In this document: positions 1-64,000 of the stretch, piece by piece
How the letters are laid out: each line of letters begins with the position of its first letter
Position numbering within the stretch: position 1 is the first letter of the stretch
From: Ectocarpus siliculosus
Taxonomy: Eukaryota > Sar > Phaeophyceae > Ectocarpales > Ectocarpaceae
Direction: 5' to 3'
Length of the DNA: 64,000 nucleotides
NCBI GenBank assembly: GCA_000310025.1
Contig: FN649740.1
Location: 962,336-1,026,335 of the forward strand
Notes under the pieces: model-generated
What the model was told of the DNA's origin: nothing
Database searches by the model: none
The model's input: only the letters and a program-made list of their open reading frames with translations
Translations under genes and position numbers: made by a program

Positions 1-194
1 CGAAGTACTCCCACAATGCTCGATATCACCCTTACCGTGAGTGACCGTCTTCTGCACTGCCACGATAGTCACCCCCACGTGTTTTCGTGATGGAGACAGA
101 AATGATGGAGGCGATTGATGAAAGCGATGCCGTGTCCAGATCATCATGTTTTGGTGTTTTGCGAAACACCCTACCCCACACCAACCCCCCCGTC

Positions 195-412
195 GAAGTG
201 GGCTGAAAAGGCGAGGAGTGGCATCAATGAGATAGATAGGATAGGGAACAATTTTGAGGCACCTTTGGCAGCAGTAGGAAGGAACGATTGGCCATTGGTG
301 ATTGGTCCTCCTGTGGGAACACTGCTCCGTCCTCTCGAGGACGCGTGGTCAATGCCCTAACAACTAAGGCATGCAAAACATGAGTAGTACCCCCCCCCCC
401 CCCCCCACCCCA
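195..412 (+). mobile_element. 3'-terminal fragment of a non-LTR retrotransposon (poly-C family)
   Basis: About 190 bp match, with scattered substitutions, the last part of the reverse-transcriptase ORF at 19,354-21,504. The shared blocks are the 'tttggca..agtaggaaggaacgattggcc' region and the terminal 'ctaaggcatgcaaaacat'. The fragment then runs through 'gagtagtac' into a C tract at about 393-412. It is severely 5'-truncated and non-coding. It lies just upstream of a PUB-domain exon and outside the tandem duplication, whose left edge is at 577. Nothing else was recognised in 1-194. Confidence 0.85.
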
Positions 413-509
413 CCCGCTTGTCGTACACCGAACCAAGATCATGCCCAAATCTTCTTTGTTTCCCTCTGCGCATTGTTCGTCGTGCGCTTCCTTCCGTTAC
501 TTTTCGGCG

Positions 510-1722
510 CAAAGAAGGCAGCCTTGTCGCGGTGGAGGCCGACCTGGCGGAAGTGCAGCGGTGTGTCGCGCTTTCACGCCGGCAGGGGGAAGACTCAACG
601 GTAGGGGTCAAGTATCTGCGAAACGTCCTCAACCACCCAGACGACGTCAAGTACCGCACCCTCAAGATATCCAACAAGTGAGTGAGGTATCATCCCCTTC
701 ATCATGAGTGATCGTGAGCGTGAGACGGGGAAAGACAATAATCGAGAACAATATTAGCTGACGTTCGTGCACAATCTTTGTCACGCGCTTTTGTCTTCGT
801 CGAGCGTGCGTGTACGTGCCCGCAAATCACTACTGTTGCCCAGTCATCATCGTTTACTGGACTTCCGCGACATTGTCCCTTGCCTTTAGATTGTTTCCGT
901 CGCACGCTGCAGATAGATCGGTAGCGCCACCACGAAACTGGAAAAAATAGTTGTTGGTGTTTGCCCTGTGTTCTCAACTTCTCTGTGAGATTCTAACGAC
1001 CATGCTATGCTTTGGGCTCAGCGTCGATTCCTACACCGAGTAGATCAGTTAGTGCTAAAGTCGTCATACGTCTCAAGAACGAGGCCCCGATGTTCGCACT
1101 ACCAGGTGAAATTTTTGGAAGTCTTCATCAAGTAAAGCGATTTAAAAAACCATGCTGAAGCTCTTCCACTACGTCGAATCAAACGACCTTTCTTTGTGGT
1201 GTTCTGTGGTGGCACTACCGTAACCCTGCTGATCGTTGCGTTAAATGCAGGAGCTTCTACAATTGCGTTGAATCAAACGACCTTTGTGATGTTCTGTGGT
1301 GGCACTACCGTAACCCTGCTGATCGTTGCGTTCAATGCAGGAGCTTCTACAATTACGTTGAATCGAACGACGTTTGTAGTGTTCTGTGACGGCGCTACCA
1401 CCGTGACCGTACTGATCGTTGCGTTCCACGCAGGAATTCTACCAAATGCGGCATCGCCTTCCAACACAACCACAAGAAGTGTGCTAAACAGATCGATTAC
1501 GAAGGGGTCATTGTTCTGAAGCACGCATGCCGCATGCATGCATGAATGTAATGCACACGATTGACGCCTAGGAAATTCTACACGGAGGTCTGGCTGAACA
1601 GCGGCATGAGAGGACTTTTTCTGGCTCTCGGCTTCAGGAAGCGGAGCGGAGGAATCGTCGGACTGGACCCCCTCGCTCCGAACACGCTCGATTGCGTGGC
1701 AGTCGCTCTACAGGCGAGATGA
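510..1722 (+). CDS. PUB-domain protein, 3'-terminal two exons (gene starts outside window)
   Basis: Two exons encode a PUB (PNGase/UBA or UBX) domain, a helical fold that in other eukaryotes binds the C-terminal tail of the p97/Cdc48 AAA ATPase. The first visible exon (about 510/528-680) ends with the typical 'VLNHPDDVKYRTLKISNK' and a GTGAGT donor that splits the Lys codon. The second (1,572-1,722) starts after an AG acceptor in matching phase, continues 'KFYTEVWLNSGMRGLFLALG' and stops at TGA 1,720-1,722. The N-P-D-x-x-K-Y-R block and the later L-x-x-x-G-F are PUB family hallmarks. The acceptor of the first exon is not certain; 'gcgcaaag' and 'gaaggcag' both follow a pyrimidine tract. Upstream exons are off the window, so any partner domain (UBX, PNGase, thioredoxin) is unknown. 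The 891-bp intron carries a minisatellite. Confidence 0.75.
1176..1446. repeat. 90-bp minisatellite, three units, inside the PUB-gene intron
   Basis: Three imperfect head-to-tail units, each beginning 'gaatc(a/g)aacgac' and containing 'ttctgtgg(t/c)ggc' and 'gatcgttgcgtt', repeat every 90 bp. Because 90 is a multiple of three, the array stays open in one frame on both strands. It sits between two PUB exons, so it is probably not translated. The third unit is the most diverged. The duplicate array at 13,708-13,880 has only two units. Confidence 0.85.
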
Positions 1723-4700
1723 CACTCACTCACACAGAATGTGTGAATAGCGGTGATTTGTTGTGTCGTCTCAGAGAAAATCCCTTTTGTTCCCTTGACA
1801 GCACGGAAGAAGTATTAGGTGAGGTCAACACGGCTTCCATTAGAAGGGTGAGACGGCGCCAACAAACTCTTTCAATCATCTTGTGGAGTCAAATATTCGA
1901 CTGCCGCTGCCAACAAGCGCGAGGAGAAACCTGTATTTGAACCCGATAGCTGCCTGTAATCCCGGACAATCGGAGACTTATTGTTCTGTCGTGAGTGCCG
2001 CACATGCCTGGTTGTTGCACCAGCACAACAGGTCACCTCGAAGAAACAGTACATTTATTGGTGGGGTTTTGAGACTGCTTGCTCTCCTTGACGATTGTTT
2101 AAATTTCCGGCAGATTGGATGCATGTATGTATACAAGTATTGTTATGGTTCAACAGTGGCCATCCTACTTAGAACACCTTAGTCCAGACTACCGGTACGT
2201 GTTAAGGTATTTGATCACGCGTTAAAATCTTTCATCATGTCGTCAGCACTACAGTACTTCAATGTATTACGCGTGAGGCTCTTCTTGTCTCCGTGTACAC
2301 TATTGACGACGGGAATTCTCGCACCACCGACCACTATGGCAACAAGCAGATCTTCTTGTCACGGCGGGTGGACTACGTAGTCACACACATCTACACAGTC
2401 GAGATCTACAGTGTGTAAGCGTACTTTTCTCTACTGAAGTTTGACCAATCATGCAGTGCGCAGCTATGCCGTCAAGGTTTAACAGCACGAAATGTTCCGA
2501 CTTGACGGCAACCACAGGGGCTGGAAGCGGCTTAGGGCGCAAGCCTCGCCACAACATGACGATAAACACGACAACGACGACGACGACAACAGGATCACTG
2601 CCTCCCCTGCAAGTGCTCCAACGGCGCTATCACGGCCTGGACCCCCCCCATCGATCCCCAGGGTTGATGGATTCACCCCATGGTCCTCATTCTACAACAA
2701 AACTATGATGTGTTGACGTGTATTTGTTTCCCTTTCGACCCAGCCAATAGAAACATGGTCCTGTTATGTAAACCAACCCGAGACGAATCGGTGTCAAACC
2801 AGTATTTTCGCCAAAGTGGTACATAAGCATCCTTCTTTCGACCCTCCCCCGCCACTCCGCAAGGAAGGTTCACCTCAATAGATTGTTGGTGCGACAATGC
2901 ACTATCCATGCAATCGTGGTTCAAACAGAAGCTCTGAGTGTGCAGATTAGATGGAAGATTTCAAGCGTGTTCGCTCTGCCGCCGGCCCTGTGCGTAGCTC
3001 CCACGCCTGGCAGGCGGGTCGGACACATTTGCGTGGCTGGCGTAGTGCCTTGATTTGTCTTCGGAGAATCGGTAGCTTCGGGCGGCGGAGCGAGGTCCGA
3101 AGCGACTGCATCCATTTCGATTTTGCAATGCCTGGATTCATAGAACACAAGTCGTGTACTTGCACGTTGGCGCGAGGGTGCCTAGAAAAAACAAAGAACG
3201 AGGTGATAGTGACTTCAAAGACGATGGCGCTCCTTGCCTTGGTGTTGTCTGCGAAGCACAATGACCAGTAGACCACTAGTCAACGCTGACTGGTAGTCTA
3301 GTGGTCATCGTGCTTCTTAACACGTTGGGTTGTGCGTCTGGCACCGTGGTTGTACGCGCAGTTCTAGGTGGCGGCAGGTACCCGGACCAGCCTCTGCCTG
3401 CACAGAGATGCACAGAGAGAGAGAGCTGTTGTTGCCCGTACGTTTTGTGTTGCGGGCATATCCTGGTTCAAGGTGCACCTCTGATTGGTTTGAACAAGGT
3501 GGAAAGTCATCGTATGAAGTATTTGTATTTCCCGTGCCCACCTCTCAGGTCTCAGCTTGTGGTACGACGTGAGGCAAGAGGGAGCTCACGCCAACATTAA
3601 CGGGTAGGCGTCTTTGGTCATTCTTCGAATTCACCACAGGCGTTGCATCAATCCCCCCTTGTCTATGATGGCAAGCGATCTAGGCAGTGCCGACTTAGGG
3701 AAAATATCATTTCTGTATTTTGCCATTGTGTCCGTGAGACGTCAAACTCTCGACACACTTGTCATCCCCCCAGGGCACTTGCCTGATGCTGAAGTGCCCG
3801 GATCATCACAACGGGTGCGGTGCAACAAGTAAACAAAGCCAACGACACGTCTCTCGCTCCCGCGTCAAAGAGCGAAACGTAAACATCCTCGCGACAAGCA
3901 AGGTAACACTTGTGCAACAGCCTGCAGGTGTAGAGAACGCAAGTCAAACTAGTACCCCGGGAGATTTCCTACTTAAAAAACACACCAAATCGACTTTCAA
4001 CGTACACTACCACTGGACATGAAAGAGGCACGCTCTGTCAAAAAGACACCTCGACATCAACGCAGAATCACGAAGCCCACTTCGACAGACGATGTGTACC
4101 TGACGGTTCTCACAACTTCGGGCCATCAAATGACGACAACCAAGCGAAAAGTACCCTACACACGAGTCGGCAGCAAGCGATCTAAAGTGCACGATGACAC
4201 CACTGCTTGTGTTCGACCTGCCCATGGAACGAGAGATAGATTACAACGAATTCGAACAACAAGAGAGTGCACAAAGACAAGGGGAAAAATCATACGAGAC
4301 AAAAGACACGAGAGGGGGTGGAAGGGGAACTCAAGCGAGGAACAGTTTAATCCACCGCCCCCCCATGTTCCTCCGCCACCGCACGCACGCGTGCATCGCA
4401 TGATGCACGTGTTGCAAACACAAGCACAAAATCCAACAAGCAATCGACACTTCCTCCAGCGCACCGTTTACGATGGCAGCAACGCCCTACACTCGATGAA
4501 ACAAGATAGTTCATGCATCCACTACTACTGCTGCAAGCCAGCGTGCCCATTTTCGCAGACATTGTTGCTTGGGTGCTTCACCTCCTCATCCACATTTCCC
4601 CACGAACACGTTCAACGTATTCCAATACTCGTGACAACACAATAATTCTCCGAAGAACCAATTGGTAAATCCCGCCCCGCCACGGTCTAAAAGAACAGAC

Positions 4701-5108
4701 AACGGACCGTTCTACACTCACTCCGTCGTACGCTCGTACGACTCATCGAACGATCGATACGAAAAAAAACGCGAGAGAGTTCGGGGTCGACAACCAACGA
4801 ACGACAATAAAACCCTTGCCCTTGCAGAAAACACGCGGATACAGTGGTATGTACTGCTGTTCGCTTAGGAAACCGACAGGAGATGCAGCCTCAATCTCCA
4901 TCAGGCCTCGCAATGGACTCAGCACGCGCAGTAGCTTCGTCACTAGGATTCAGACACCCAAGTCTCGTTCTCGGAGTGGTTTGGCGGAGACCTAAGACAT
5001 GCGAGCGAGCGACGACGAACCCCACAAGATCAAGGCAGACTAGGGAGTTCGCCCATCCGCTCTCGACTTTTACGACATACCACGCTGCCACACCTAACAG
5101 GGCGTCTC
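1723..5108. other. Intergenic region between the PUB and VOC-GyrI genes (tail to tail)
   Basis: The two flanking genes converge here, so both 3' UTRs must lie in this interval. I see no convincing exon: open frames are short, unspliced and equally open in overlapping frames. Contents are a short CGA/ACA-rich microsatellite near 2,565-2,592 and a 64-bp imperfect palindrome at 3,253-3,316. The region is duplicated at 14,161-17,476. Confidence 0.6.
3253..3316. repeat. 64-bp imperfect palindrome made of inverted tRNA-like 5' halves
   Basis: The stretch from 'gaagcac' (3,253) to 'gtgcttc' (3,316) is self-complementary with a few mismatches and could form a long hairpin. Each arm, read outward from the centre, gives 'GACTggTAGTCTAGTGGTCA', which resembles a tRNA D-arm and A box. 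A related perfect palindrome occurs at 6,062-6,101. Confidence 0.75.
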
Positions 5109-5660: not shown

Positions 5661-5693
<33 letters not shown>

Positions 5694-17476: not shown

Positions 17477-20400
17477 TCAAGCCTTGGGGGTGCCCTTGGC
17501 CACGATCGGGATGCAGACCTTGGTCTTGAGCTTCTCGGGCGGGGTGTCCTTCGGGTCGTTCTCGTACAGCTCGAACACGGGCATGCGCGACTCGTAACCC
17601 TTAGCCTCGACCCACTCGAAGGTCGCCTCGTAGCACTTCTTGAGCTCGTCGTACGGCCCCGTGTGCAGCGTCGTCACGCACTTGCAGCCACCGGCGGTCC
17701 TCACGCCGAGGCCGTTGTCGTCTCCGTCGACGTCCTTCATCAGGGCGGAGGCACCGCCGCCGGCCACCGAGGGGCCGCTGGTGAACTTGGTGGTCCCGCC
17801 GGGGGAAGGGTCCCAGGTGTAGAAGGCGGACGCGGGGGGCCCGGCCATGGCGAGCCCGGCAGCGGCGGCTCCCGCGAAGGCGGCGGGGAGCGTCTTCTTG
17901 GTCTCTTCGCTGATGGCGGGGGTGTTCGCGGCACTTGTGGACATCTGCGGGGGGGTACGGGGGGTCAATTATTATTAGGACGGCAAGAATCTGCGAGTGG
18001 AGAAAGAAACACGAGCTAGGGCGGTAGATGAGGACAACAGCAACGACAACGACAACGGAAATGACAACAGGAACATGGGCGTTGGACTCTTTCTCACCGC
18101 TCCGTAACAGTACACAGTAGGCATGTCCTCAACCACCCAGGTGTAGTGCCAGTCGTACTTGGCGCCAATCTCCATGTCCTTGGCCATGTCTTCGTTGGAA
18201 GGAGCAGGCCCCTCCTGTACCTCGCACAAGCCCCACGGTTGGCCGAAGGGGTCTTTGCACCGACCCCACACTGAACGTCGACATCAAAACATGAGACCAA
18301 AACGTGGTATAACAAGGGCGCAACGTCGTTGAGAGCACATGAGGGTAGTGGATTGTTGTCTTGGCTTGAGGTATCTCCGTAGATCTCCCTACGGGCGGAC
18401 GATCGTATCGTGATGTTCACGGCCGTGCGCATGCGTGCATCGCAAGAAGAACACGAGCAGCCACACGCGGTTGAAACCGAGACAAACACAAAGTGGTAGT
18501 ATCTGGAAATATGCAGCACACAGACCGCCGCATTCTAGCAAAGGCGCCACACCGTGCCAGCTACTCCTTCCGCATTGTCAAACCCTCCTTGACGACGGCA
18601 GAGAAAGAGAGCACCAACATCCATGTGCTGTGCAGACAAAACGACGAGCTGTACAGATCAAATCACAACAATAACAATTAATCGAGCAGAGCACCCCTCC
18701 TCCTGATTGGTTCGTCTTTTGCCCGCCCACCTTGTCCCCAGAACTGCATCGACACCTCCTCGAGGACCTCCCCGCCGTTGTCCTTGAAGGACTTGGCCAG
18801 GGGTCCCGCTTCGTCCTTCCTGACCTCGTACGAGACGGTCATCGAGGCTTCCGTCTTGCTCGCGTCCTTGCTACAGTGGTCGCCGAGCATGACGATGCCG
18901 CCGTTGATCTTCATCTCGGCGCACATGATCTGGGTTCGTCGAGGGAAAATATTCCACAGAGATACAAAATAAAAAATAATGCGTGCTTTGAGGCTGGCGG
19001 CCAGCGTCCGATCTTGGACGAGACTGAAGTTGTACATCAGCGAAAGGGGACGACGACCCGGGCGCGCGACTTGTCTCGTTTGCTCGTGAGAATATGCAAG
19101 CCAAACCAAGAGCCCACCAGAGACATCGTTGAGGACAGCAGGCATATACAAGGAAACACCTCCCGCACCGGACTGTTAAAAAGGGGGCTCGAACGACGGT
19201 TTTTCTCCGTAAATACACGTATGGCAATGCTATACACCTAGAGATGCAGTATAGCGTTGGCTGGGATATTATTTATGTTGGTTTTAGCACGGGTTACAGG
19301 TTTGGGATAGGGGAAGGTTTACGAACCCCCCCTCTCGATATTTTAAGAAGGAGGTGGACGCATGGGCCCAGAAAGAAGAAGAGACATCAAAGGCAGACGT
19401 TGGGAACGTAGACCTAGAAAAGGAGTTCACTGAGGACGAGGTTGAGGCGTGTGTGAACAAGCTGCAGTGCCACAAAGCAGCAGGGGCGGATGGGATAGTC
19501 AACGAGTTCATGAAGTTTGGGGGGAAGGGGATGATCCAGCTGATGGTACTGCTGTACAACTGGGTGTGGAAAAACGAGTATGCGCCAAGTAGATGGCGGG
19601 AAGGAGTGGTTGTGAACTTGTTTAAGAAAGGAGACAAGACTGACCCAGGAAACTACAGGGGTATCACACTGTTGAACACAGTAGGAAAAGTGTTTTGTAA
19701 GCTGCTGAACGATAGGATAGTGGGAGTATTGGAGAAGAAACGTAGCATTAGTGAGGGCCAGGCAGGTTTCCGACAAAAGAGGGGGTGCGTAGACCACGCA
19801 TTCACGGTAGGGAGAATCATCCAAGGTAGAAAGAGGGCGGGAAAGCGGACGTACTGCTTCTTCCTGGACGTGAAAAAGGCATACGATACCGTATGGAGAA
19901 ATGGGCTGTGGAAACAATTATCCAAGTACGGGATCAAGGGGAAAATGTGGAGAGTGCTGAAGAAGATGACAGAGTGTACGAAAAGCGCGGTCATGCTAGA
20001 CGGAGAACTTTCTAAATTCTTCGACATTGAGCAAGGGGTCCCACAAGGTTGCACGCTGTCCCCAACATTGTTCCAGGTGTTCATCAACGATCTGTTGGAA
20101 GTCGTAGAGGCAGTCCGGAAGGGAGTAAAAGTAGGGGACACGGAAACTTCGGTGTCAGGAATGCTGTTTGCGGATGATTTTGTTGGTATGTCGGACACCC
20201 CTGAGGGACTGCAACTGCAAATTGACGCGGCGAAGAAGTTTACTGATAAGTGGAGATTGTCTGCCAACGTTACGAAGAGTGCCGTCATGGTATGCAACGA
20301 GGGCAGGGAGGAACCAGTAGAACATAGATGGAAGTGGGGGATCGAGGAGATTGCAGTAGTGGACCAGTACACATACCTCGGAGTAGAGATCGCAAAAGAT

Positions 20401-23400
20401 TGTTCGTGGAATGCACACATGTCCAAGGTAGCGGAAAAGGGCAAAGCACGAGCAGGGAAGCTGCACCCAATACTCGCAAACCGGCACCTTGATACACGCA
20501 TCAAATTGACGGTGTTGAAGAGCGTAATCGTACCGCCGCTAGAGTACGCCGGAGAAGTATGGGAAGGAAATAAGAAGGTAGTGAAAGAACTCGAGGCGGC
20601 GCAGATGAAAGCAGCGAAAATCATCCTAGGATGCTCCAAGCGCACAAGTAATGCAGCAGTCAGGGCAGAATTGGGGATCCAATCCCTACGGTCGGGAAGA
20701 GACGTAAGGAAGCTGACATGGCAGTATCGCATGTGCGGGATGGGAGAGGAGAGGTTGCCGAGAATAGTATGGGAGGCGAAGTGGGCAAACAAAAAGAGGG
20801 GTAGACAACCCACGGAATGGGTCAAGGTTGTAGAGGACGTATGGAAGGGATTGGACATCGACGAAGATGAAACGCTGGAAACGGAGGGTCTACAGGGGTT
20901 CAAGAAGAAGATATCTGTTGCTTGTGCCGACAGAGAAGAACAGAATCTAAGGAAAGAATCCAAGGATAAGGAGGGTCTAGAAGTGTACGGAATGTTGAAA
21001 GAAGGAATAGGGTTCAAGGATTACCTACATGGACCAATGGATGCAGGGACAAAGCTTAAGGTCAAATTCAGGACCGGGGACATAGGCCTTCGCGAACGTC
21101 GACGAAGACATAGGACGGTAGACGACGAAGACGATAAGTTCAAATGCGATTGCGGCTTCGAATGCGAAGACAGTGTTCATGTAGTCGCGGAATGTCCGTG
21201 GTACGAAAACGAGAGGGAAGTGTACATGACTGAGCTGGGAAAAATACAAGTGACGTACAGGGAGATGTTTGAGGCATGGAATAGAGAGGAGAGGACGGTA
21301 GCGGTACTGGGGAGTAGAAAGCGGTTTGAAAAGGCGGGAAGGGACATCGGTAGGATAGACAAACTAGGGAAGACATTTTTGAGCCACCTTTGGCAAAGTA
21401 GGAAGGAACGATTGGCCATCGGTGATCGGTCCTGTGGGAACAATGCTCCGTCCTCTCGAGGACGCGTGGTCAATGGTCTAACCGCTAAGGCATGCAAAAC
21501 ATAAAAGTACGCCCCCCCCCCCCCCCCCCCCCCCCAATATTTCCCATAATACGCCAAATATCCCCCAAAACTAAAACCCCCCCTTCCACCNNNNNNNNNN
21601 NNNNNNNNNNNNNNNNNNNNNNNNNNNNNNNNNNNNNNNNNNNNNNNNNNNNNNNNNNNNNNNNNNNNNNNNNNNNNNNNNNNNNNNNNNTGATCTTGCG
21701 CGCCAGCTCCTTGGGCACGTCCTCGATGGTGTTGGTGGAGTTTGACACCGACCAGATCTGACCGAAAGGGTCCTGGTAAACACCGAACCTTTTGTTGTAT
21801 TTGTATGCATATAGGGGGCAAGGGTGTTACGTTTAAGAGTGTTCCAGGCTTGTGCTCTTGCTGAGTGCGCTACATGTTGTCGTGGGTCTTGCAACCAAGA
21901 AAGTGAAGGGAGGGGGAGCTGTATCGAACGAAGGTCTTGAGAGAGAAGGGATGAACTACTATCGGGGTAAAAGGGACGCCAAAGGATGCGCGTATGCGGG
22001 GCCAGCACTGCGACCGACCGACGTTTTTCAACAATACCACCACTGACGTTTCTCACCTCACGAGGACGGATCAGAAGCATCCACTGAAACCCGTCCGGCA
22101 ATGAAAACAGCATTTATCAAAACAGGGCCTTCTTTCTCTAAAGAGAACAACAGAACCGTGGCACAAAGCCCTTTCTCATCTCTCGAAATTCGTTCAAATC
22201 CAACAACACGGAGCATCAAACAACAGAAACTGCTTTCCCAAAAGAACGCAACCAAATCGTGGCACAAGCGCGACACACTTTCATCTCCCGAAAACAACAA
22301 GAGCACCCAACAACTCACGTGGCGCCCCAGAACTGCTCGGCCATCTTGGTGAGCTCCTTGGCACCGTGCTCCACCAGCTTGGCACCAACGCCGATCGGGT
22401 CGTCGGTGTTGAGGTGCAGGCGGGCGTGAGGGGTGCTGATGGCGCCGGTGTCCATCTTGTTGCCGAGCTCCTCGACGTACAGCGCTACGCCGCCGATGTC
22501 TATGGCGAGGTGCATGATCTTGCCGTCCTCGTCGGGGAAGCGGAAGTACTCCTGACGAAGGACGGGAGGGCGGGTAGGGGGGGGATTGGGAGCGGCGGCG
22601 TGCGGCATAGCGATCATGGAACAACAGGCGCGCGCAGCAATGTTGGTTTAACGATTTGTATCATTTCGAAGCAACCGAAAACGTGCGATGCGGCCTACTC
22701 ACCTGCACTGGGAAACCGCGGTGATTGTGTGTGTACGGTGCAGCTAAATACGAGGTTCTGCTCGGCCGCGAAAGGGCATCGCCACCGCCATCTGTCAGGC
22801 GCCAAATCTATACCGCAGGCCGACTCGATTATTTGTGATTTTCATCGACTGAGATGGCAACTGCCTGTCGATGCAGCAAGTCGGTTGATGTTCTTCGCAT
22901 CGGGGAACCAATTTGTTGGCACACGCCAGCCAAAAAGGGGGCGAATAGACAACTTGACCGTCCACTGACAATTGTGAGCCCAAAGCCCGCGAAAACGTAC
23001 CAAGTGTTTGTGTACGGACGAGCTTTGCAAACCTACCTTGGCTTTGGTGGTTTTTCCCATGAAGTCGACAAACTTGTCCGCGCTCTCGACCATGACATTC
23101 ACGATGATGCCCCTGCGAGTCGGAGGGTGCTGCAAAAGGTTTTCGTGAGGGGGAGAGAGAGCGAGAGAGACAGACGTACAGACAAGGGATGACGGCGCGG
23201 GAGGATGTTGTCATTTTCGCGAAGCAATCCAAATTATCGAATGTCTTGGACAGTAGTAGTCTGTGAAGGGCAGCCGGAGAAACGACACCCAGGGGAGGGA
23301 TGAAGAAAAGGAGCGGTCATAAGCTACAGTATGAACCGCCGTGGGAGTATGCTCACGAAGGGGCATGACCGACGAGAGGCGAGGACCGTAGTTGTGTTCA

Positions 23401-32600: not shown

Positions 32601-35600
32601 CGCGTCGAGCCAAGCCCGTTCGGGCAGCTTCGCGTCGGCATCATCTGCTCCCGCTTCCGTCTCAGCGTTCTGAACGTCCAGCCGTCTCGACAGTCCCCGG
32701 ATCAGAGCAGCAAGGAGTGCCACCTTCCACCTGGCCAAGCGGTCGGTAGTCGGAGATGAAGCGGGGTTCGCAGCAGCCTTTCCCCTCCCCTCCGCTGTGC
32801 TGCCGCCCGGGACGGCCTTTTCGGTGACCGTCGTGACCTTGGCACCAGTCCCTGTCGAAGGCCTTGCTCTCACCCCAAGCAACCACTCCAAGAGCACCTG
32901 CAAGGGCCGGCCGGCCTCCGAAGCCTCGTTTTCTTTGGGAGGAGCCGCCGACGAGCTACTGGGGCCGCTGCCCTCCTTCCGGCAGTCTCTAGCGGCGGCG
33001 GCGGTATTTCCATGCCCCTTCCCGCTACCATCTTGGTTGTCTGAAGCAGACTCGCCAGCATCAGCAGGACCAGACTTTCCTTTCCCGGTCCCTTGCACAT
33101 CCAAGCCAGCAGCAGCAGCCTGTTCCATCGCCCAGAAGGCCAAGCCGCACCACGCGTTAGCGATCAGGCCGGACGTCGGCAAGACCTCCAGCCGAACGTC
33201 GGCACAGCAGTTTTCCTCTTCCGCCCCCCTGCTCGAGGAGGAGGACGGCGGCAGCAGCAGCGGAGCCGCGGCGTCTACCGCGGAAGCCGCGTCCTCGGGG
33301 ATCGGGGAGGGAAACGCCTCCATGAGGGTTTCCAGGATTGAGAGGAGCAGGGGAAGTTCTTCGCCAAGGTTGAGGCCGGCATCTCTAAGCAAGGGGTGCG
33401 GTTCTGTTCCGGTAGCCCGACGGCGACGGCAACATTAGTGCAACAACAGAAGGGAGGGGAGGTCATGACGACACGGCCAAATGGTACCCACGCTCGATGC
33501 GCCGGTGCATGGTGACTGCGGCTCTCTGTCACGTATTGCTTTGATTCTTGAGGAAATGTTGTGGATCGACACGGCCGTCGGGGTGGCGAGAGAAGCATGG
33601 CACAGCGAAACGTGCATGAAGCTGTTGTGTATTTCTAGAATTTGGGAACGGGGCGCCTCGGTAAGGGAAATGTCCGCCTATACAGCAGTACCTGATAAGT
33701 AGTACCGGAGCGTGTCCTTTCGATGGCAAGAGACTGAGACATTTTCCAAGTTTCTTTTCCAGAATACAACCAACGGTCAGTGCGGAATGACGCAGCGCTG
33801 GGCATCAACGAGTAACGTGGAACGCCTGATATAGATAGGCGACAACGATGTCGACAACAACAACAACAGCAACAACAACAACAACAACAAGAGGACAAAA
33901 AGAAGAAGAGCCACCCAACAAACAACGCCCCAAACCGCAAGCGGTCGGCGTTTGGTACACAATCCTCTGCCAGGCGCTCACCCGCTGGCGGTAGGCAAAA
34001 GCAAGGCAAAAGAGCCGCCAGAATTCGAGCGGAGTGGTGCCAAGCAATCTCGCCGCTGCTCCCCCCTGCAAACCGCAACGCCACAAGAGATACACACGAA
34101 AAAGACACTGGTGACCACAGACGAAAACGCGGGGATTTCCGCAAGATTTGATGAATACACCGGGTGCTCTGGCCATGTACCAATCGGGAGTCAGTAACAA
34201 CGCGACCATCTAGCAGTTTCGTCACGAAATAGCGCGTTCAAGCACACAACCAGGCAAATTATTGGACGCGTCTGCGCTGACCTGTCCACAAAGCACCATG
34301 GTCGGCACGTCGTCGACAAGCGGATGCATGCGCCGCCGAACATTTTCAGTCACGTAACCTATCGCATTCTTTCGGTTCGACCTTCTCCTCGCGGTGGGAA
34401 TGCGATAGTACACTTTTCGAGGTGGCCCATCCATCAAGACTCAAGCATGCAACAACCTCTTGCTTCTCTCCTACGGCGCCACCCCCCCCCTGGTCGTCTC
34501 TCGAATGGGCGAAAAAAAAGACACTTGAGGGGTGTGGATTGTTCCGATGGCAAGTTCATGCGGTGCCAGCGACAGTCGAGGACGCGTGCTCACCCGCAAC
34601 ATCCCGCAACACCTCGCCCAAGCCCTTGCTCTTCTTGTCTCCTTTCCAAGTGGTGGTCCACAGGGGCTTCAGCGAGGTCGATGGAAACGAGGCCACCACT
34701 CTCATGAGCGAAGACATGGCCACTTCCCTGACAACACCCCTGCCACATTCATTGCGTGCCATCGTAGGTGCTGCTGCCGTCATGCCCTTGCCCAAAGATC
34801 AGATACGATACTTTTGACATTACGGGTTTTATTGCTACTACGCCATCGGAAGATATGGCCATCATGCCATCAAAGAGACTGCCATTACGTCAAAATATAT
34901 TGCCATCACGTTGTCAAAGATAAGAAGTGGCGTGCGAGGAACGTCTTATGGGGTGAATTCAGAACTGGCAGGTATTCCCTCCAAAAGCACCAACAAATTA
35001 TTCCCCAGGCCGTAACGGTACCCCCCCCCCCTGCCCCAAACGGTCGGGAAGAGACGCAAGGAAGCTGACATGGCAGTATCGCATGGGCGGGATGGGAGAG
35101 GAGAGGTTGCCGAGAATAGTATGGGAGGCGAAGTGGGCAAAAAAAGAGGGGTAGACAACCCACGGAATGGGTCAAGGTTCTAGAGGACGTATGGAAGGGG
35201 TTCGAAATCGACGAAGATGAAACTCTGGAAACGGAGGGTCTACAAACGGAGGGTCTAAAGGGGTTCAAGGAGAAGATATCTGTTGCTTGTGCCGAGAGAG
35301 AAGAACAGAATCTAAGGAAAGAAACCGAGGATAAGGAGGGTCTAGCAGTGTACGGAATGTTGAAAGAAGGAATAGGGTTCAAGGAGTACCTACATGGACA
35401 AAGCTTAAGGTCAAATTCAGGACCAGGGACATAGGCCTTCGAGAACGTCGACGAAGACATAGGACGGTAGACGACGAAGACGACAAGTTCAAATGTGATT
35501 GCAGTTTCGAGTGCGAAGACCGTGTTCATGTAGTCGCGGAATGTCAGTTGTACGAAAAGGAGAGGGAATTGTACATGACTGAGCTGGGAAAAATACAAGG

Positions 35601-38600
35601 GAGGTACAGGGAGATGTTTGAGGCATGGAATAGAGAGGAGAAGACGGTAGCTGTACTGGGGGATAGGAAGTGGTTTGAAAAGGCGGGAAGTGATATCGTT
35701 AGGATAGACAGACTAGGGACGACATTTTTGAGCCACCTTTGGCAAAGTAGGAAGGAACGATTGGCCATTGGTGATCGGTCCTGTGGGAACAGTGCTCCGT
35801 CCTCTCGAGGACGCGTGGTCAATGGTCTAACCGCTAAGGCATGCAAAACATAAAAGTACGCCTCCCCCACCCCGCCCCCCCCCTCTGCCCCAAAACTACC
35901 ATCCGCCTCTTTTTCTCGCGATTCATGGCACGACAGACCGGTCAGCCACACTCACTTTTCTTTGAGGACCCAGCGGGACAAAGCTCTCAGGAACATGTGA
36001 GCCACCTTTTTCGCCTGCGCGACGAAAAATGCGCGTTGTACAGTACGCACGTGAAAAACATGCGGGCGGGAGGCGAAAAAAGCGTAGGAGCAACGTGCTT
36101 TCCCTTCCTTCTTCAATAGCCAACATATTCGAGACGGGCCCATAACGCAAGGCGTCCCTCGGCAAACGGTGTGGGCTGCCTGCACGTGCCTGGAACATGG
36201 CTTTTGCGTACACATAGCGCTTCATTTCTGCCACACGAGATCTCCACAAGAGGCTGAGAACATTGTGCGTGTTCCAACGGGAGATGCGATCGTAAGTTGA
36301 CCTCGTTCTTGACGTCATGCAAAAGCAAGCGCGCGCCGCAGTTCACTTTATCATCTAAGCAAATACACAAAGAAAAACCACATCCATCTAGTAAAGCCAC
36401 TAAGTCAGTACCGACAAACCGAATAGAAAAAACAATATGAAAAGGCCTTGCCACTAAGAGAGCTCTCCTCTTTCTTTCACTGGCGGCTCATCAACTGACG
36501 TCAGTAACGACGAAACGGTGCCATCGAAATACACTGGACGTCAAAACAGGCCAGAGGACATTCACGATCGAACTGGAACAGCCCTCCCCCCTTGAAAACC
36601 GAAAGGCCGCAACCGCATCAGACAGACTGGCAAAAAATAAAACTCCGAGCAACAACATATCGTATTATTGTCTCCGCCTTGCCCGTGGGATAACCGGTAT
36701 CCTTTGCGGCGGGTATTACCTCTTCACGGCCGATCTGGGCCATCATGCTGACAGCGAACATCTCCCACGACTCCACCGCCTGCACCTTCACGTCGTCCCG
36801 ACCGTCGGCAGACTTCCCGGATAGCCACGTGAACAACCCGGTGCCGACGTCGAGAAGCCTCTTCTTTCCGGCCGAGTCCTTCGCTCTGAGGAGCCTGGTC
36901 GGGTCTGCCAACGAGAGATGCACCGCCCACACCCTGATCTGCAAAGAGCAAAGGCGCAGGAGAGAGAGAGAGGGGGGGGGGAGACACGCCGGGAGATTGA
37001 AAAACCGGCAGAGTGCGAGAGAGAAAACACTCCACCATGTCTATCAGACGACGTTCGGAAAAGCAATGGCAAAGGGGTGGGAAAAAACGGGGTTCGCAAC
37101 ACACCAGTCAACGTTCCCCTCCGAACAAGATTCAGAATACAGCTTGGCCGAGCTGCACGGGCACACAAACACCGACATGTGGTTTAATCATTGCACGAGC
37201 TTTAGCTCACGCGGGGAGTACAACATATGCACGTACCGCGTGCTTGACTCGCTGTGGCGTGGCTTGCCGCGGGTTCGTCCTATCCGGTGCTGCTGCAGTC
37301 GAGGAAGACCCCAACGCGTGAGGGAGCGGATCTGCTTCCCCGGCCGCCCCTGGTACCGTGGCTTGTGACTGAGAACTCGCATCGTAGAAGAGCACCCTGC
37401 ATCGAGGAGCAAAGGCACCCACCCGTAGGAGGCGAGAAAAAAAACATCACGGCGGTTACATGTGACAGTAATAGTCGTACCAAAGGTAGCATGTTTCTCG
37501 TTGATTTGAAATCGATAGTCTTGGTTGTTTTTTTGGGGCCTGAACGAAAAAAAAGGAAGAGAGCCGACCCGAGCGGAGAGAGAGGAAAATCCTGGCGTGC
37601 GTGAACCAAATGGCACTTTCACGTCAGTGGCAAGGCGATTGTCGATACGCAATATAGAGAACTAGCTGTGTGTGACGGCATTACCACGACTTTTCCGTCC
37701 CTCTTCGTGGAAAATCTTCACTTCGAAACGGAAGGAATACCCATACCGTACTGTCAGTAGCTCACGGTACAGACCTTACGAAACGGCACACGTTTTCACT
37801 ACAGGCAGGTGTGTGCAATAAAATGCTTCACACACCCAACGCTCGGACGATACCTACAACCTTCGTGTAGCCCCCTCGTCTACCCCCCCCCCCCACCCTT
37901 CGACGCCGAGCAATGTCCTTTGAAAAACACACAGCACAATTGATCGTTGTAGATGCAGAAAAAGACACGAACTACCCACAACAAAATAGACAGAAGGGTT
38001 AACCCACCTTCTCTCAAACAAGACCAAGGAAACAACAACGACAATATCAACAAACCATAAACACCAACAACAACGCAACCCACCTGCTCATGCCTTGGGA
38101 AAGCCTGCCATCCCTGAGTGCCTCGAGCACCCACGCCGCGATCCCGGCGTTCCCTCTCAGTCCGCCCAGCGACACGGCCCTCTCCGCTGCCTTGAGGGCA
38201 TCTGCCCGGACTTTGACGGCGTCGTCGAAGCAAAGCCGCAGCAGGCAGCGCACCCAGAAGCTGTCCTCCTGGTGATTGTGTGGCCACCAACGGTTAGTTT
38301 TGGGGAGGCGGGGGTAGGCAAAAGGGGTTGGGCGTTCGGCCAAAAGGACTCGCCCGAAGAGCGTTGTCGGGTTAAAAAGGATGGCCAGTGTTTACGGTTT
38401 GGTTTGATGGGGGCGGCGAAAGGGGTGAGTGGGGTAGACGAAGGGGTTGTACTGGTTTGTCGCATACATGGCCAAGGGCGCTCTCACCCGAAGGAAGTCG
38501 TTATCGGGCTAGCAAGAGTGGGTCAGCAGGATTTAGCGATAAATCCGTTCTTGTGTATCTACATAGGCCCATCGATTTTATTTGCGAGTAGTGGAAGCAC

Positions 38601-43613: not shown

Positions 43614-45744
43614 ATGGACAGCATAACAATTTATTCCGGCTCGAAGCTATTCTGGCGCACTAGGCTGAACGTGGAGATGTTCATGCAGCAGCACAAAACG
43701 GCCAACAACGTTGTTCAAGCAAGTGGATACTATGTTTCTTTGGGGGGGTACGAATGCAATACAATACGTCGGTAGACAATAATAGCATCCCTACAATGCC
43801 GAGACGGAGCGATATACCGGGTTTTCGCCGGGGGGGGATACAAGTGAAGGAGCCACTGCTGGATAGCGTGACGGGGGGGGGTGGGGGGGTGCAACATAAA
43901 GCCTCCGTTTCAGAGCGTCTTTTGATGCAAATGTATGTACGTTCCTATATGATATAGTTGGGTATTGTGGAGAAAGAACTCCCAATGTGATGAACGGCGC
44001 TAACTCCCACTCCACCCGCCAGGTCCTGATTCACGTTCAATTTTTCGCTATATTTTTTGCACTTTTCCTGCCACGGCAGATAGTGATATTTGACGCCAGC
44101 AATTACCAAGAGCTAGCACAGGTGTGGGTGTGCTGGAGTGCAGTGGCGGCGAAACTTGACGCCAAGGAGATGAAGAAAGAGGTTTGTGTGCTAAGAAATG
44201 CTGCAAGACTTGTTTGTTATTGCGACAAGGAGGTGAACACAGAGGTAGTCAGGTAGGGGAAACCCATCCTTACATGTTCAAGAAGACAGGGCCTAGTGTG
44301 CACTCCCCCACGTATTCTCTTCTCACTTTTGGGACAACACCGTAAGACGAGGCGGAAAGAAAGATCCACGCGTAGAAAACACCCGCATGACAATCTCGTG
44401 TTCGTTCATACCGTGCGAATCTATCCCGTCCCGCTGTACACAAAATCAAACATTCAGCGCTGCTTTGTTGTAGCGTGAATTCACTCGAAACGCGGTGTAT
44501 ATGTACTGACGCGCGGCAGATGGACGCGGCGGAGAGGGCGTTCCACAACCTTGGAATGAAACCGACGCCTGAGAACGTGCAGGCGGAGGCCACGCGGAAG
44601 GCCGCTGTGTCCTTCATCATCAAGAGAATACAGGTGGATCGGGATGAGAGTCCCGAGGAGGCCGGGGGACCCGCGGTGTCTCACAAGGTGTCCATGCTGC
44701 AGATGGCCGCGGACGAGGACGGGATGCAGCTACTCGTGGAAAAGCCGGAGGGGGTCAACGACACCTTCAGCCGAGCGATGACGAAGCGGGCTTCAATGTG
44801 AGGGAGCACACTCGGTAGCGAGAGAACACGGAATGGACGGGTAGGGGGGGGGGGGGCTGGGGGGCGTGCTAACGGGGGTGTCAGAACGGTGGGAAACACT
44901 CCCCAGCTTCTTAATTTATTGGGATGACATATCGCTAGATTATACCAAAACACATTGGTTCATGTACAACCAATATTTCAGAGGGGGCCTTTCGAGTAGG
45001 TACGTTGGAGACACAGATAAATTTGTTCCGTCTAGCGACTCGTCGGGGTGCATAAAAAACTGCATTGCATAGCACACATGTACGGAACCTCGGCTACACA
45101 TCTCAATGCAAAGCTGGAACGAGCCGGTGCTGCTAGTTAGTGTACCTGCAGATGCAAGCTTTGACACATAAATACACGTCTCGGGTGTTCGGCGGAGCAC
45201 TCCCCTGCCAATCGCATACGTCCATCACAGACAAACACAGCGTCCCGTTGAAACAACGAAACGACCACGAGCCTTTTGTTACCTCTGCTCGCGCCCCATT
45301 TGAGGAGAAAATTCTGCTCGTCCAACGCCCTTTCGTCCAAGAGAAACACTATGTGTCCAGAAGGAAGGCGCATGAAACAACATTTTCGGCACTAGTAATT
45401 GGTCAATGAGAATCCATCTTCTTTCCGGTTGCTGCATGCTGTGATGTCTTGCTCGTGTGTTTTACCCCACGACCCGTTGTACTTTTGGCAGCCATGAAAC
45501 TATCGAGTTCCACGCACACCGCATCACGCTCGGGTTGACACATGGGTCTTTGTTTACGATGCGATGCGATGCGCCTTTCTTTCGCGTTTCGTTTGTTCTT
45601 CGGTGGTGGTGGTGGTACTCTCTTTGATGCAGCCAAGAGGTCGCCGAGGTGATGACGAGCTTGAGGAAGAGCCTGGGAGATGTTAACACGGCCGCCCAGG
45701 CGGCTGCAGCCAGTCTCGTCGGGGCAACGGGTACTGTGGAGCAG
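43614..45744 (+). CDS. Conserved-looking protein of unknown function (at least 4 exons)
   Basis: Exons 43,614-43,718, 44,080-44,181, 44,520-44,797 and 45,633-45,744 join in phase. The ATG at 43,614 lies in a strong context (CCCACCATGG). The protein begins 'MDSITIYSGSKLFWRTRLNV', continues 'IVIFDASNYQELAQVWVCW' and 'KLDAKEMKKEMDAAERAF', and ends in the visible part with 'SLRKSLGDVNTAAQAAAASL'. The first intron appears to be GC-AG: GCAAGT after 'VVQ' is the only donor that keeps frame with the next exon. No domain was recognised; it looks soluble and helical. It may be the C-terminal half of the upstream R-R-x-S gene. The 3' end is not certain; a possible terminal exon lies at 46,286-46,465. 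Confidence 0.6.
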
Positions 45745-58726: not shown

Positions 58727-61019
58727 GGTGCTGGATAGAATGTAGAAGAAGTGTGCACGGTGGAGAGAGGTTGGAGTGGTTGATGTTGTGGGAGTGATCA
58801 GGGTGGGCGCGGAAGGCAGAGAGCAGCAGCGCGCGCGGTTTTTTGCGCGAAAAAAGAACAACCGCTGTTGCACCCAAAATCTTAAAAAATAAAAAATTAT
58901 CGTTGTATTTTCAGATGTTGAACTCACGAGTTCAAGTTGAAGGGGCCTAGCAACACAAACACCAAGATATCCTGCAACTACAAATTGCGTGCCAAGTTAC
59001 GCCGCAAATTAGTTCCGGATCAGCGGATCAGCCCATGGGGATCTCGGGTCTACTGAATGATGCGTGTATCGAACGTTACCGCGCGCGCCCCGGTGCTGGC
59101 GTCTTGGCACGGTCATGGGTATAAGGCGGGGAACATGAGGAGGAGAAGGCGCAGTGTTCCTGCGCCCTACGGTGCAACGTCAGGAGTGAGAAGAGGCGCA
59201 CGCGCGATGGTCTTTTTTTAAATCCGGTGAGAAACCTTCAGACTATATTGTAATGCGTTGCGAATTTTGTGTACAATTGGGCAGAGACAACACGATGAAA
59301 GGCGTCGTCCAGGACACAAAGATATTGCGATGCGAGGCCACCATTGCAGTAGAGAACAACCACTGCAAGGATAAAAAACAAATCTGGATAAGACGTGCGA
59401 AATATTGCGGCTCATATTGTATCCCGTGGGAAGAAAACTACCAATCAATATTGTTTCGCGTTTTCCCTAAATAAATGTTGGTGTTCGTGTAGACTAGTCG
59501 ACAGCAGAGTAGTCTATGCCTATGATGTAGTAAAGGACCTGTATCTTCAGTAGTAAGTCGTTCATCACACACCGCACCGCCGTACAGATGATGATATGGA
59601 CACAAAATATCTACACGTACGTGAAAGATGCGATGCGCTATACGGTAGAGCAAAAGAGCGAGTGCGGCGAACAGGGTGCGCTACTCGTTGTCGGGATGGT
59701 CACAATTAAAAATTAATAATGGATTGGGGAATCCTTTTCTCCCCCCCCCTCGCCGGGAGCAGAAGTATCGCGCGCGGGGGGGGGGGAGGAGAGAGAATTA
59801 CCGCTGGTGGTGTGCACATGCAAAGCAAGGGTTTGGGGGTCGGGTAGGGAGGAGGAAGACCGGCGAGACATAAAAGGCAGCACTGGAGCGAAAAGATTTT
59901 TACTGGATTCTCGGCGGTTGTACAATACGCGGCTCCTATCTGTTGTGTGCCGAAGAAAAAAAACGCCCCCTTGGCACCGCAAGCAGAGTAATTCACCCCC
60001 GGAACCCAGGTTGTTGTTGAGATGATTTGGTTTCTATGGCAGCACAAACAAAGAATTGGGAACTGCAACTGCGGCAGACTTGAGGTGGGAGGAAGAAAGG
60101 GTAGACGAGTCCTCGAAAAATGCCCCGCGCTAATGGTTTGAAGAGTGGGACCTCCGTTCGTTGTTCTTCAGTGGTGCGCGGGTGCGTGGATAACAACACC
60201 CGAGCGGCTGGTGGGGGGGACGGGGCTGGTTTGCGCGAGACTACAATTGTAGTGGAAAGGCACGTTGAGGGAGCGGGTCGACTTTCTATGTAGTGTTTCC
60301 GTGCGTCACAGATAGTGCCTGCTGTCCCTGGCATGACTCGTTCTTGTCGAGTATCCAAGAAGACCGAAGGTTTTTCGCACAGTTCTTGGTGAAGACATCA
60401 ATACGCCCCTGTTACGGTTTGGTTCACAATCCCCGCGAGCGCCTTCAAGCGCAATGGTTGCACCGCAGCAGCATTGTATCGCAGACTGTGCGGAGAGCGG
60501 GGTATTAAAACGAGCACAACCTTGTATAGTGCACAAAACACACCGGGGGGGGGGGGTGTACTCATAGTCGTGCATGCCGTAGTCGTTTGACCATTGACCT
60601 CGCATCCCTACAAAGCCGGGACGGAGCACGCCGGGTTCTCACCGGACCAGGCTCTCACATCACCAAGCGCGAAGCGCCGTGAGGTATTTGGCGAGTCGCA
60701 TGAAGGGTGAGCTGCATCCTGCTAAGGGTGTTCGGCATCTTGTGCTTACTTCCTTGCGTACGGATGACAGCTACGTATGACTTAATTTATTTTCTGGTGC
60801 TTTCACTTCCAGAGACAGTTGTAAGCACTGTGTAACTGCCTCGAGGAAGCTTGGCCATTTTAACACAACGTGGTGCGATCATCCCCCGTTGCGCGGAGTG
60901 AGGTTTCTCGACCCCGCACAACATGATCTACTCGACCACCATTATGGTTACCGCCAAAAAAAAAAACGAGGTAAAAAAAAAAAAACGGTAACCTGGTTGC
61001 CGAGTTCACGAAGTGGATT
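58727..61019. other. Gene-poor region upstream of the beta-rich gene
   Basis: Contains the promoter side of the leftward 55,754-58,726 gene; an A/T-rich stretch lies near 58,882-58,905. No exon with splice support was found. Other contents are C and G runs near 59,744-59,787, a G run near 60,545, and two A runs near 60,956-60,985 flanked by the inverted pair 'ggttaccg'/'cggtaacc'. Confidence 0.5.
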
Positions 61020-61219
61020 GGCTTCTTTTACAACGTCGTTGCCAAGCGACGAAAACCCAATCCCGATGGCAAACACCGAGTGGGGGGCTTGTTTTACAAC
61101 GTCGTTGCCAAGCGACGAAAACCCAAACCCCGATGGCAAACACCGGGGGGGGGGGCGGCTTGTTTTACAACCTCGTTGCCAAGCGACAAAAACCCAACCC
61201 CGATGGCAAACACCGGGGG
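61020..61219. repeat. ~66-73-bp minisatellite, three units
   Basis: Three head-to-tail units each read 'ggctt(c/g)ttttacaac(g/c)tcg' then 'ttgccaagcgac(g/a)aaaaccc' then 'ccgatggcaaacaccg' and a G run of variable length. Unit length varies mainly through the G run. Each unit has TTGCCA near its start and TGGCAA near its end, a small inverted pair. The array directly abuts the 3' end of a retrotransposon copy on the minus strand. Confidence 0.85.
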
Positions 61220-61227
61220 GGAACACC

Positions 61228-64000
61228 GGGGGGGGGGGGGGTACTCTTTTGTTTTGCATGCCTTAGCGGTTAGACCATTGACCACGCGTCCTCGAGAGGA
61301 CGGAGCATTGTTCTCACAGGACCGATCACCGATGGCCAATCGTTCCTTCCGATTTTGTCAAAGGTGGCTCAACCATGTCTTCCCTGCAGTCTATCTATCC
61401 TATCGATATCACTTCCCGCCTTTTCAAACCACTTCCTATACCCCAGTACAGCTACCGTCTTATCCTGGCTATTCCATTCCTCAACCATCTCCCTGTGCCT
61501 TCCTTCTACTCTTCCCCGCTCAGTCTTGTGTTCTTCCCTCTCCTTCTTGTACAACTGACATTTCACAACTGCATGAACACGGTATTCGCACTCGGAGCCG
61601 CAATCACATTTGAACTTGTCTCCGTCGTCTACCTTCCGAAATCTTCGTCTACGTTCTCGAAGGCCAATGTCCCTGGCCCTGAATTTGACCTTCAGCTTTG
61701 TCCCTGCATCCGTTGGTCCATGTAGGTACTCCTTGAACTATTTTCCTTCTTTCAACATTCCACCCACTTCTAGGCCCTCCTTATCCTTGGTTTCTTTGCT
61801 TAGACTCTGTTCTGCTCTCTCGGCCAAAACAACAGATATCTTCTCCTTGAACCCCTTAGACCTTCCGTTTCCAGCGTGTCACCTTCGTCAATTTCGAACC
61901 CCTTCCATACGTCATCTACAACCTTGACCCACTCCGTGGGTTTTCTACCCCTCTTCTTATTTGCTTATTTCCCACTCCGCCTCCCGGGCTATTCTGGGCA
62001 ACCTCTCCTCTCCCATCCCGCACATGCGATACTGCCGTGTCAGCTTCCTTGCGTCTCTTCCCGATCGTAGGGATCGTATCCCCAGTTCTGCCCTGACGGC
62101 TGCATTACTTGTACGCTTGGAGCATCCTAGGATGACTGCGCCGGCTCAAGCTCTTTGACTACAGTCGTGGGCCCGGTTTAGCGGTTCCCTGTGTAGCGGG
62201 ATGCCCTGAATAGCGGCTATAAAACTCGTGACACGGCTGCACCCCGGTTTAGCGGTTATACAACCGCTGAACCGGTCGTGCCCTCAATAGCGGTTATTGG
62301 ACATGTTTGCAGCCACCAATAGCGGTTATCGGTTCAATTTTTGCGGGGACCTGCCTGTAGTGCGCGCTTCGCTTGCACGTACTCACAGCACAGCGACTTG
62401 GTCAGCCTGTTAGCTGGTCGATGCTCATAATAAAAAGGACACAGCGAGACACACACACATACACCAAACGACGCAGGGCCAGAGAAGAATCGCCGAAAAA
62501 TAGCTGAAGAAACGACGATGAGAGTGATGGTGGTAAAAGCAACGAGGATGATGGTGAAAACACTCCAAAACGAACTCGAGTGCAAGGTGGCAGTTTTCCT
62601 GTGTTGCTACCTACCGTGTCTGTCCTTATTCCGGGGAATAGCTTTTTCCTGCCCCATGCCGCCCCCTCACGAGGTCCCAGTTAGTGACATACAGAAGTGT
62701 TTTGTGCTTTCAACCGCGCTGAGACTGACGACGACGTCTTTTCATTGGTCAGCCGGTTAGCGCGGTCGATGCTAATAATAAAGACACACACCATGCGGCG
62801 CGTGGATGGAGAACTGTGCAAGCTTCTAGATGCGGCACGAGTCCAAGCGGCGCGCATGATTGTAAAGGTTGCTGTGGTGGCCGCATACACGGCATGTGTG
62901 TGGGGAGGTGGAGGTTCCGGATGAGAACGAGATGCAACCGGCCTACAACCAAGAAGGCCAGAGTTCCCCTCACTTTTCAAATCCGCCCAAGCGCCAAGAG
63001 GTGTAAGGTGGCTTTCTAGCACCAGGCGCGCGGAAAGAAACAACTCGCGCTGCAGCTACACGACAACAGCCCCACACGCGGCTCTACTTTGGCTAGAATC
63101 TCGAGGTTTTGAAGCTTTTTGACCAGAAGGTAGCGCACGCAGAAATAGTGCGCACAGGAAGAGATCGCGGAACCTTTGCGTAAAAGGTGCGAATGACGAG
63201 GTTGTTGAAAGTTGTCCGGTACATGGAGGGGGGCCTAACCTCCGACGACGACACGACGACCTAGAGCTAGGGCTAGATACCACCGCACAATTTGACGGAG
63301 CGAAGGGCAGGGGGGTGATGTCACCGCCACCACACTCAGAGGTATCATCGGATTTTGGCCAGCGTGGAGAGCGCGGAGTCGTGTGGCGTAAGCGAAGCAG
63401 CACACTATTTCGCGAGGCAAAAATGGCGTTCCTCGCAGCGCACGCCGCTCCTCCAGCGCGGAAGACAGATACCAGAGAGATTGCTTTGGGTGAAGAATGA
63501 TCGATACGCGACACACGGCAGAAATGAGATGCTCAAGCACGTGGTTGATTGCCATTGCGTTGTCACAAGTTTGTCTTATCACCTACTTCACTTCGTTAGA
63601 GACGCGAACGATTTTCCAGTCTTGATGAGGGGCATACAGTCCAGAAGGGAGAATAATCTTCATGCTTTGGCGAATTAAAATGCATCATTAATGAATGTGC
63701 TTGCGGCGTTGTCCTTCATTGGCTCGTTACTTCTTCATCTGCACCTTGTATGACTGCTGCAATGATACGCATGGCCCTATCAATATCAGCTCTCCACGCT
63801 GTTATTGTTGGGCAAAAATGGGCTTTTTCCCGGTTTAGCGGTTCATGACCGCTATTAAGCCTCCTGGTTCAGCGGATAATGACCGCTGAAGTGATTTAGC
63901 GGCGATGCCCTGAATAGCGGTTATAAAATTTCGTGACACTATGGACCGCTAAACCGGGCCCACGACTGTACTGTACCTTGTTTGTTTCTTTCCCATACTT
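61228..64000 (-). mobile_element. Degenerate LINE-like copy (poly-C family), split by a DNA transposon
   Basis: On the minus strand, 61,228-62,159 matches the 3' half of the retrotransposon at 19,354-21,504, including its 3' end ('aaggcatgcaaaac', then C run = G run at 61,228-61,241). Frameshifts break the reading frame; recognisable pieces include 'KTVAVLGYRKWFEKAGSDID'. The match stops at 62,159 with 'gtcaaagagcttgag' (antisense). It resumes at 63,971-64,000 with 'aagtatgggaaagaaac', the sequence just upstream in the intact element (about 20,555-20,582). The interval between is a separate transposon. The element continues beyond the window. Confidence 0.9.
62162..63968. mobile_element. Non-autonomous TA-flanked DNA transposon (Tc1/mariner-pogo type), 1.8 kb
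   Basis: Perfect 24-bp terminal inverted repeats begin CAGTCGTGGGCCCGG at 62,162 and end with the complement at 63,968. Both ends are flanked by TA (62,160-62,161 and 63,969-63,970), as expected for Tc1/mariner/pogo insertion. 'TAGCGGTTAT'-type subterminal repeats are clustered in 62,175-62,330 and inverted in 63,835-63,955. An internal direct repeat ('ttggtcagcc.gttagc..ggtcgatgct') occurs at 62,399 and 62,745. No transposase ORF or DD-D/E motif was found, so it would need a transposase in trans. It sits inside an antisense LINE-like copy. Confidence 0.9.

Follow-up and report, generated by a model that had tools for sequence, protein, structure and literature searches.

Does a retrotransposon whose copies end in a run of C also choose its target by such a run? 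The question is raised by one stretch of Ectocarpus siliculosus DNA (assembly GCA_000310025.1, contig FN649740.1, positions 962,336-1,026,335 of the forward strand), referred to here as the window, 64,000 nt long. Six 3' ends of elements related to long interspersed nuclear elements (LINEs), designated copies A to F, were recognised in this window, and a C tract followed each of them. The reading favoured here, with a probability of roughly 60%, is a LINE lineage with a C-ended RNA that would insert by target-primed reverse transcription at pre-existing C/G tracts.

Copies with a C tract at the 3' end

The termini of copies A-D were read directly on the coding strands. All four share a block ending in ...aaggcatgcaaaaca, then 8-10 nt, and then a C tract (Cn, a run of n C) with no poly(A), as the first-pass annotation of this DNA had described. 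In copy A (195..389, +; 5'-truncated, 83% identical to copies B and C), 9 nt separate the block from C17 (390..406, +), after which accccaccc follows. Copy B is the longest (19333..21511, +), and its 5' boundary is approximate, no longer copy being present to pin it; 10 nt after the block it carries C24 (21512..21535, +). Copy C (35041..35860, +; 5'-truncated, 91% to B) also has 10 nt, followed by cctcccccaccccg plus C9 (35,861-35,883). Copy D lies on the minus strand and has 8 nt before C14 (61,241-61,228). Its 3' part (61242..62159, 87% to B over 61228-62135, last bases placed by eye) had been described as part of a single stretch, 61,228-64,000. That stretch is in fact split by a DNA-transposon-like insert of 1,811 bp (62160-63970) with 35-nt terminal inverted repeats, 89% complementary and starting TACAGTCGTGGGCCCGGTTTAGCGG. 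Past the insert, the body of copy D resumes (63971..64000, -; by eye against copy B) and runs off the window. Further inverted repeats of similar motif occur inside the insert.

The family had been taken to consist of four copies. The relationship of A-D stood; two relatives had been missed. Copy E (60557..60660, -; 5' boundary uncertain) is the 3' end of a divergent subfamily with a C12 tail (60545..60556, -, from the listing of C-run flanks), and was found by self-BLAST of the window (E-value 1.4e-11 with the C tract included). When the E body without its C run was used as the BLAST query, A-D were recovered at 68-72% identity over 88-113 nt (E-values 1.5e-7 to 7.6e-9) and copy F at 81% over 47 nt (2.9e-6); A, B, C, D and F were the only matches in the window below an E-value of 1. 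Copy F (43749..43829, -) is an 81-nt relative of E with a C7 tail (43742..43748, -, read directly). It was first spotted in the C-run flank listing, a route biased towards C tracts; because the E query without its C run recovers it, the A-F set is independent of that listing. With a profile of A-E, copy F fell below significance (E-value 9.5). The profile of tails A-E gave no more significant matches in the window, either as further tails at the remaining C/G runs or as decayed older tails at the 5' C-runs. No extra copies were found in virus and prokaryote contig collections, where eight stretches matched once and none was confirmed; such collections say little for an element of this kind.

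The C tract was thus seen at 6/6 recognised 3' ends across diverged subfamilies (C7 in F, a tract with interruptions in C, and C12-C24 in A, B, D and E), and the poly(A) of the L1 clade at 0/6. The 5' starts of copies A, C and F differ and the 3' end is common to all three, the variable 5' truncation that is a trait of elements without long terminal repeats (non-LTR elements).

The coding frame reaches almost to the tail. An open frame runs from an upstream stop into copy B (19288..21504, +) and encodes a reverse transcriptase (RT) with an RVT_1 domain (19636..20391, +; residues 101-352 of 722, E-value 4.8e-34). This RT frame has 722 codons, and its TAA (21502-21504) ends 7 nt before C24, which bears out the earlier statement that the stop of the long copy lies about eight bases from the C run. 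By reading, the same TAA stands at 35,851-35,853 in copy C, 7 nt before the C tract, and an in-frame TGA at 381-383 in copy A, 6 nt before it. Copy D has no stop at the corresponding place; it has frame changes plus, by reading, an in-frame stop.

Among solved structures, the copy B RT scored up to 97.5 bits with LINE-1 ORF2 chains and up to 60.3 bits with R2 chains, and one chain named RNA-directed DNA polymerase scored 97.7 bits. Ten of the 11 matches, LINE-1 ORF2 and R2 chains included, outscored the single group II intron RT. Judged by RVT_1 and these pairwise RT scores, the element is a non-LTR (LINE) retrotransposon, with no clade assigned. The NCBIfam matches were all to RT and all below cutoff. 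A CCHC-like motif, CDCGFECEDSVHVVAEC, was noted by eye at 21145..21195 (+), with about 100 residues after it. No Pfam family was matched by the last 357 residues at E-values up to 10, and no R2-type C-terminal endonuclease is evident in this region. A structure model of the protein from the single sequence (mean predicted local distance difference test score 33.6) was unusable.

C runs at the insertion sites

Copy C gives the clearest target site. Its insertion at 35,041 had been described as flanked by a duplication of a C-run plus tgccccaaa, and this was confirmed over 20 bp with 19/20 identical. The 5' copy of the duplication is C11-TGCCCCAAA (35021..35040, +) and the 3' copy is C9-TCTGCCCCAAA (35875..35894, +), both beginning with the C-run. 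No match as good occurred in up to 2,000 random flanks; one did in 3% of 429 flanks next to other C-runs, a matched control that included the real sites, copy C's own among them. Between the element body and the 3' duplicate lie 14 nt of C-rich tail, cctcccccaccccg (35861..35874, +, read directly), extra to the duplicated run. The target of copy D (C14 tail, 61228..61241, -, read directly) was a 66-bp tandem repeat (61020..61221, -; 2.9 copies) whose units are separated by C runs, and the copy occupies one of these runs. At the matching position, C11 is present in the neighbouring unit and a shorter run, C6 followed by ACTC, in the third. A 13-bp AACACCGGGGGGG pair is also present at 61209-61234, directly beside the tail of copy D.

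The duplication of copy C and the repeat neighbours of copy D show that the C tail belongs to the element and is distinct from the target run (copy C), and that a C-run was in the target before insertion, clearest for copies C and D. This bears on a different explanation, in which the element itself lacks a tail, inserts into C-runs and leaves a 3' tract that is the target run lengthened by slippage. Runs on both sides of the element, and copy F with only C8 and C7, agree with such a process. It is nevertheless improbable, given the 14 nt that copy C bears besides its duplicated run and the lengths of the 3' tracts in A and B (C17 and C24) against C7 on each 5' side.

C-runs were also in excess at the 5' junctions. 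A run of C7-C11 ended 0-9 nt upstream of four of the five junctions inspected (A, B, C and F; not E). Copy A has C7 ending 3 nt before the junction (185..191, +, read directly), copy B likewise C7 at 3 nt (19326..19332, +, read directly), copy C has C11 at 9 nt, and copy F has C8 at 0 nt (43830..43837, -, flank reading), the last two Cs of which possibly belong to the element. In 113,505 strand positions outside the elements, a run of C7 or longer occurred within 20 nt upstream at 0.76% and a run of C6 or longer at 1.3%. At the background rate, the chance of four C7 junctions in a row is 3.4e-9; the same calculation gives 4.5e-7 when A, C and F alone are counted and about 1.7e-8 for at least four of five.

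The choice of background matters here. The window has a GC content of 53.6% by base counts and holds 22 C or G runs of at least 9 nt, where base composition predicts 0.67, about 33 times fewer; A or T runs of that length number 5 against 0.22 expected. Since C/G runs are so common, the control had to use the real window. Many of the C/G homopolymers of at least 9 nt have no recognised element beside them. Two 100-N assembly gaps (21591-21690 and 49930-50029) are both near C/G tracts, where assembly may fail.

With so many runs available, the element may have a C tail and no true target preference, the 5' runs arising from microhomology with the tail that aids resolution, or simply being common. 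The 33-fold abundance of runs, the flanks of A, B and F and the missing run upstream of copy E (both given below) all speak for such a case. However, the background for the excess at the 5' junctions was the real window with its many runs, and copies C and D had long runs before insertion, so that an absence of preference is considered unlikely, though it is the most plausible of the alternatives.

The letters before the runs were also compared. After removal of five element tails, 82 runs of at least C6 remained, the 3' run of copy C being left among the 78 that are not target runs. GTA stood at most 2 nt before two of the four target runs (C and F) and before one of the 78 others (hypergeometric 0.005, post hoc). 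This fits an explanation in which the C tract is produced by RT slippage on a short C stretch of the RNA, and the target is set independently by an endonuclease motif, for instance GTA ahead of a C-run. The numbers are tiny, the motif was picked after looking, and the proposal is compatible with the reading favoured here; as a separate account it is very unlikely.

A model of insertion and its weak points

Target-primed reverse transcription on a C/G tract would proceed as follows. The RNA would end in roughly GUAC-(C)n, a few nt past the stop of the open reading frame (ORF). A nick in the G-rich target strand, at the edge of the G-run, may then free a G-run 3' end, which would pair with the poly-C terminus of the RNA and prime the copy. 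A later cut of the other strand would leave a duplication that begins with the C-run, as in the layout of copy C. The element also ends in GTA(C), and pairing or cutting may extend beyond the run. Candidate routes to the C end of the RNA would be read-through of a C tract with internal priming, or slippage. Priming from a nicked G-run is probably the best model. The first-pass annotation had proposed priming and targeting at C/G tracts; its targeting half gains support from the tail of the element's own, the prior runs of C and D and the runs at four of five 5' junctions, and priming on the homopolymer itself stays a model.

In a more specific form, the element would be a LINE specialised for C/G homopolymers, possibly for GTA plus a C-run, with a poly-C RNA pairing with a nicked G-run and an ORF reaching almost to the tail, that is, a mirror of the priming of L1 A tails on T tracts. 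This form is tentative, somewhat short of an even chance.

The last 110 nt or so may be recognised by a protein of the element. Divergence between copies was lower in the last 110 nt than upstream for B/D (2.8% vs 13.0%, p 7e-4), A/B (8.3% vs 23.2%, p 0.0065), A/C (7.4% vs 19.5%, p 0.016) and C/D (4.6% vs 11.1%, p 0.04); B/C (p 0.15) was the one pair of five above 0.05. A possible hairpin, CGTCCT-CTCG-AGGACG, was noted in copy B (21449..21464, +), weakly supported. The same place corresponds to 328-343 (+) in A, 35798-35813 (+) in C, 61302-61287 (-) in D, 60623-60603 (-) in E and 43806-43786 (-) in F. In E and F, the hairpin of A-D still has all six pairs, so that the stem is present in three sequence types; one of the differences is two-sided and two are wobble changes. 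These features are faint signs of a 3' RNA end that a protein could recognise.

Several results weigh against the favoured reading. A duplication reaching past the C-run was found in copy C only. For A, B and F, 0.5%, 1.3% and 6% of random flanks scored as well as the observed ones, with the 3' stretch of F beginning 6 nt inside the element; among the 429 C-run-matched flanks, the shares rose to 33%, 60% and 50%. The target duplication is therefore clear in C and inseparable from C-run matching in A, B and F. Upstream of copy E, no C6 run occurs within 120 nt of the nominal start at 60,690, a start that is itself uncertain. The 5' junction of copy B, taken as 19,336, is approximate, and that of copy D lies beyond the window. 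The evidence base is six tails and four usable 5' junctions from one window.

The 3' end adds further points of the same kind. The conservation hinges on the cut, with p<0.05 in 4/5 pairs at 110 nt, 1/5 at 80 nt and 3/5 at 150 nt, and the pairs share copies and are not independent. RNA folding of the last 110 nt of A-E and of 77 nt of F was no better than that of shuffles (z -0.20 to 1.71), and three internal control stretches gave z of -0.04 to 1.15. In the minimum-energy folds, the hairpin is present for A, B and C and missing for D, E and F. Shuffled sequences often had stems of its size (means 1.66, 2.78 and 2.09 for B, E and F, where the actual tails had 3, 5 and 2). Finally, no endonuclease was seen in the copies, which stop short of the 5' part: they are truncated, or in the case of D run off the window, before the N-terminal apurinic/apyrimidinic endonuclease region. 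The endonuclease would sit in this missing part.

The window also contains a large tandem segmental duplication (577-13101 and 13102-26954, the second unit ending at 26,954), with blocks of 787-4,820 bp at 91-97% and diverged stretches at 72-82%. Copy B is located in the second unit only. Its empty site was sought in the paralogous unit, where the region 7,052-7,933 was too diverged to show a homologous site. A 1,008-codon open frame, rich in Ala, Gly and Ser and with no Pfam match, occupies 30411-33434 on the minus strand, and a 90-bp tandem repeat of 2.8 copies lies at 1192-1450. Searches of the window for RNA families and tRNA genes found none.

Comparison with known systems

The element resembles L1 in its RT, which best matches LINE-1 ORF2 chains (97.5 bits, vs 60.3 for the best R2 chain), in its 5' truncation and in its homopolymer tail. 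The target duplication of L1 begins with a tail-like homopolymer, and the layout of copy C is alike. The difference from L1 is that C replaces A in both tail and target, and that there is almost no 3' untranslated region (UTR). The tails of known LINEs consist mostly of poly(A) or another short repeat. LINEs of the RTE clade have a very short 3' UTR and a simple-repeat tail, as do the present elements. RTE LINEs are not known to carry a CCHC motif, and the CCHC-like motif found here is a difference. The 3' repeat of plant RTEs is (TTG)n or (TTGATG)n (PMC3747384).

In LINEs of the stringent type (UnaL2, ZfL2, SART1 and the maize and sorghum LINE1-1_ZM group), a conserved 3' end stands beside a simple repeat, and the present elements may be alike in this. 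Two papers describe conserved 3' structures of such LINEs (PMC3747384, PMC4176376). In the monocot group, conservation is far stronger over the last 45 nt than overall, and these 45 nt fold into a hairpin that shows compensatory changes (PMC3747384). The present elements differ in their (C)n tail, in the weak support for the hairpin and, for A, B and C, in a conserved block that overlaps with the frame end. For the repeats of UnaL2, slippage has been suggested (PMC3747384).

Insertion into simple repeats is a feature that the present element would share with repeat-targeted LINEs. SART and TRAS insert in (TTAGG)n, and Waldo, Kibi and Dong are targeted to microsatellites. Here, a C/G homopolymer would be the target, with a tail to match. 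The SART1 RNA is thought to anneal to the target repeat via a short repeat-like sequence, and internal initiation has been reported for SART1, with which internal priming on a C tract can be compared; both points come from PMC7265360.

Table 3 of PMC3747384 gives the 3' repeats of plant and green-algal LINEs as (A)n, (TTG)n, (CA)n, (ATT)n and others, with no (C)n among them. In a literature search by titles and abstract openings, none of the titles listed has a poly-C-tailed LINE as its topic; this search is weak, as 'poly(C)' is unsearchable and coverage partial, and a database entry could exist. Set beside the known tails, a poly-C tail raises the questions of how, in the absence of ordinary polyadenylation, a transcript acquires or retains its C end, and of whether the composition of the tail dictates the homopolymer that is targeted. 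LINEs of this kind might account for the origin of some of the C/G tracts in such genomes.

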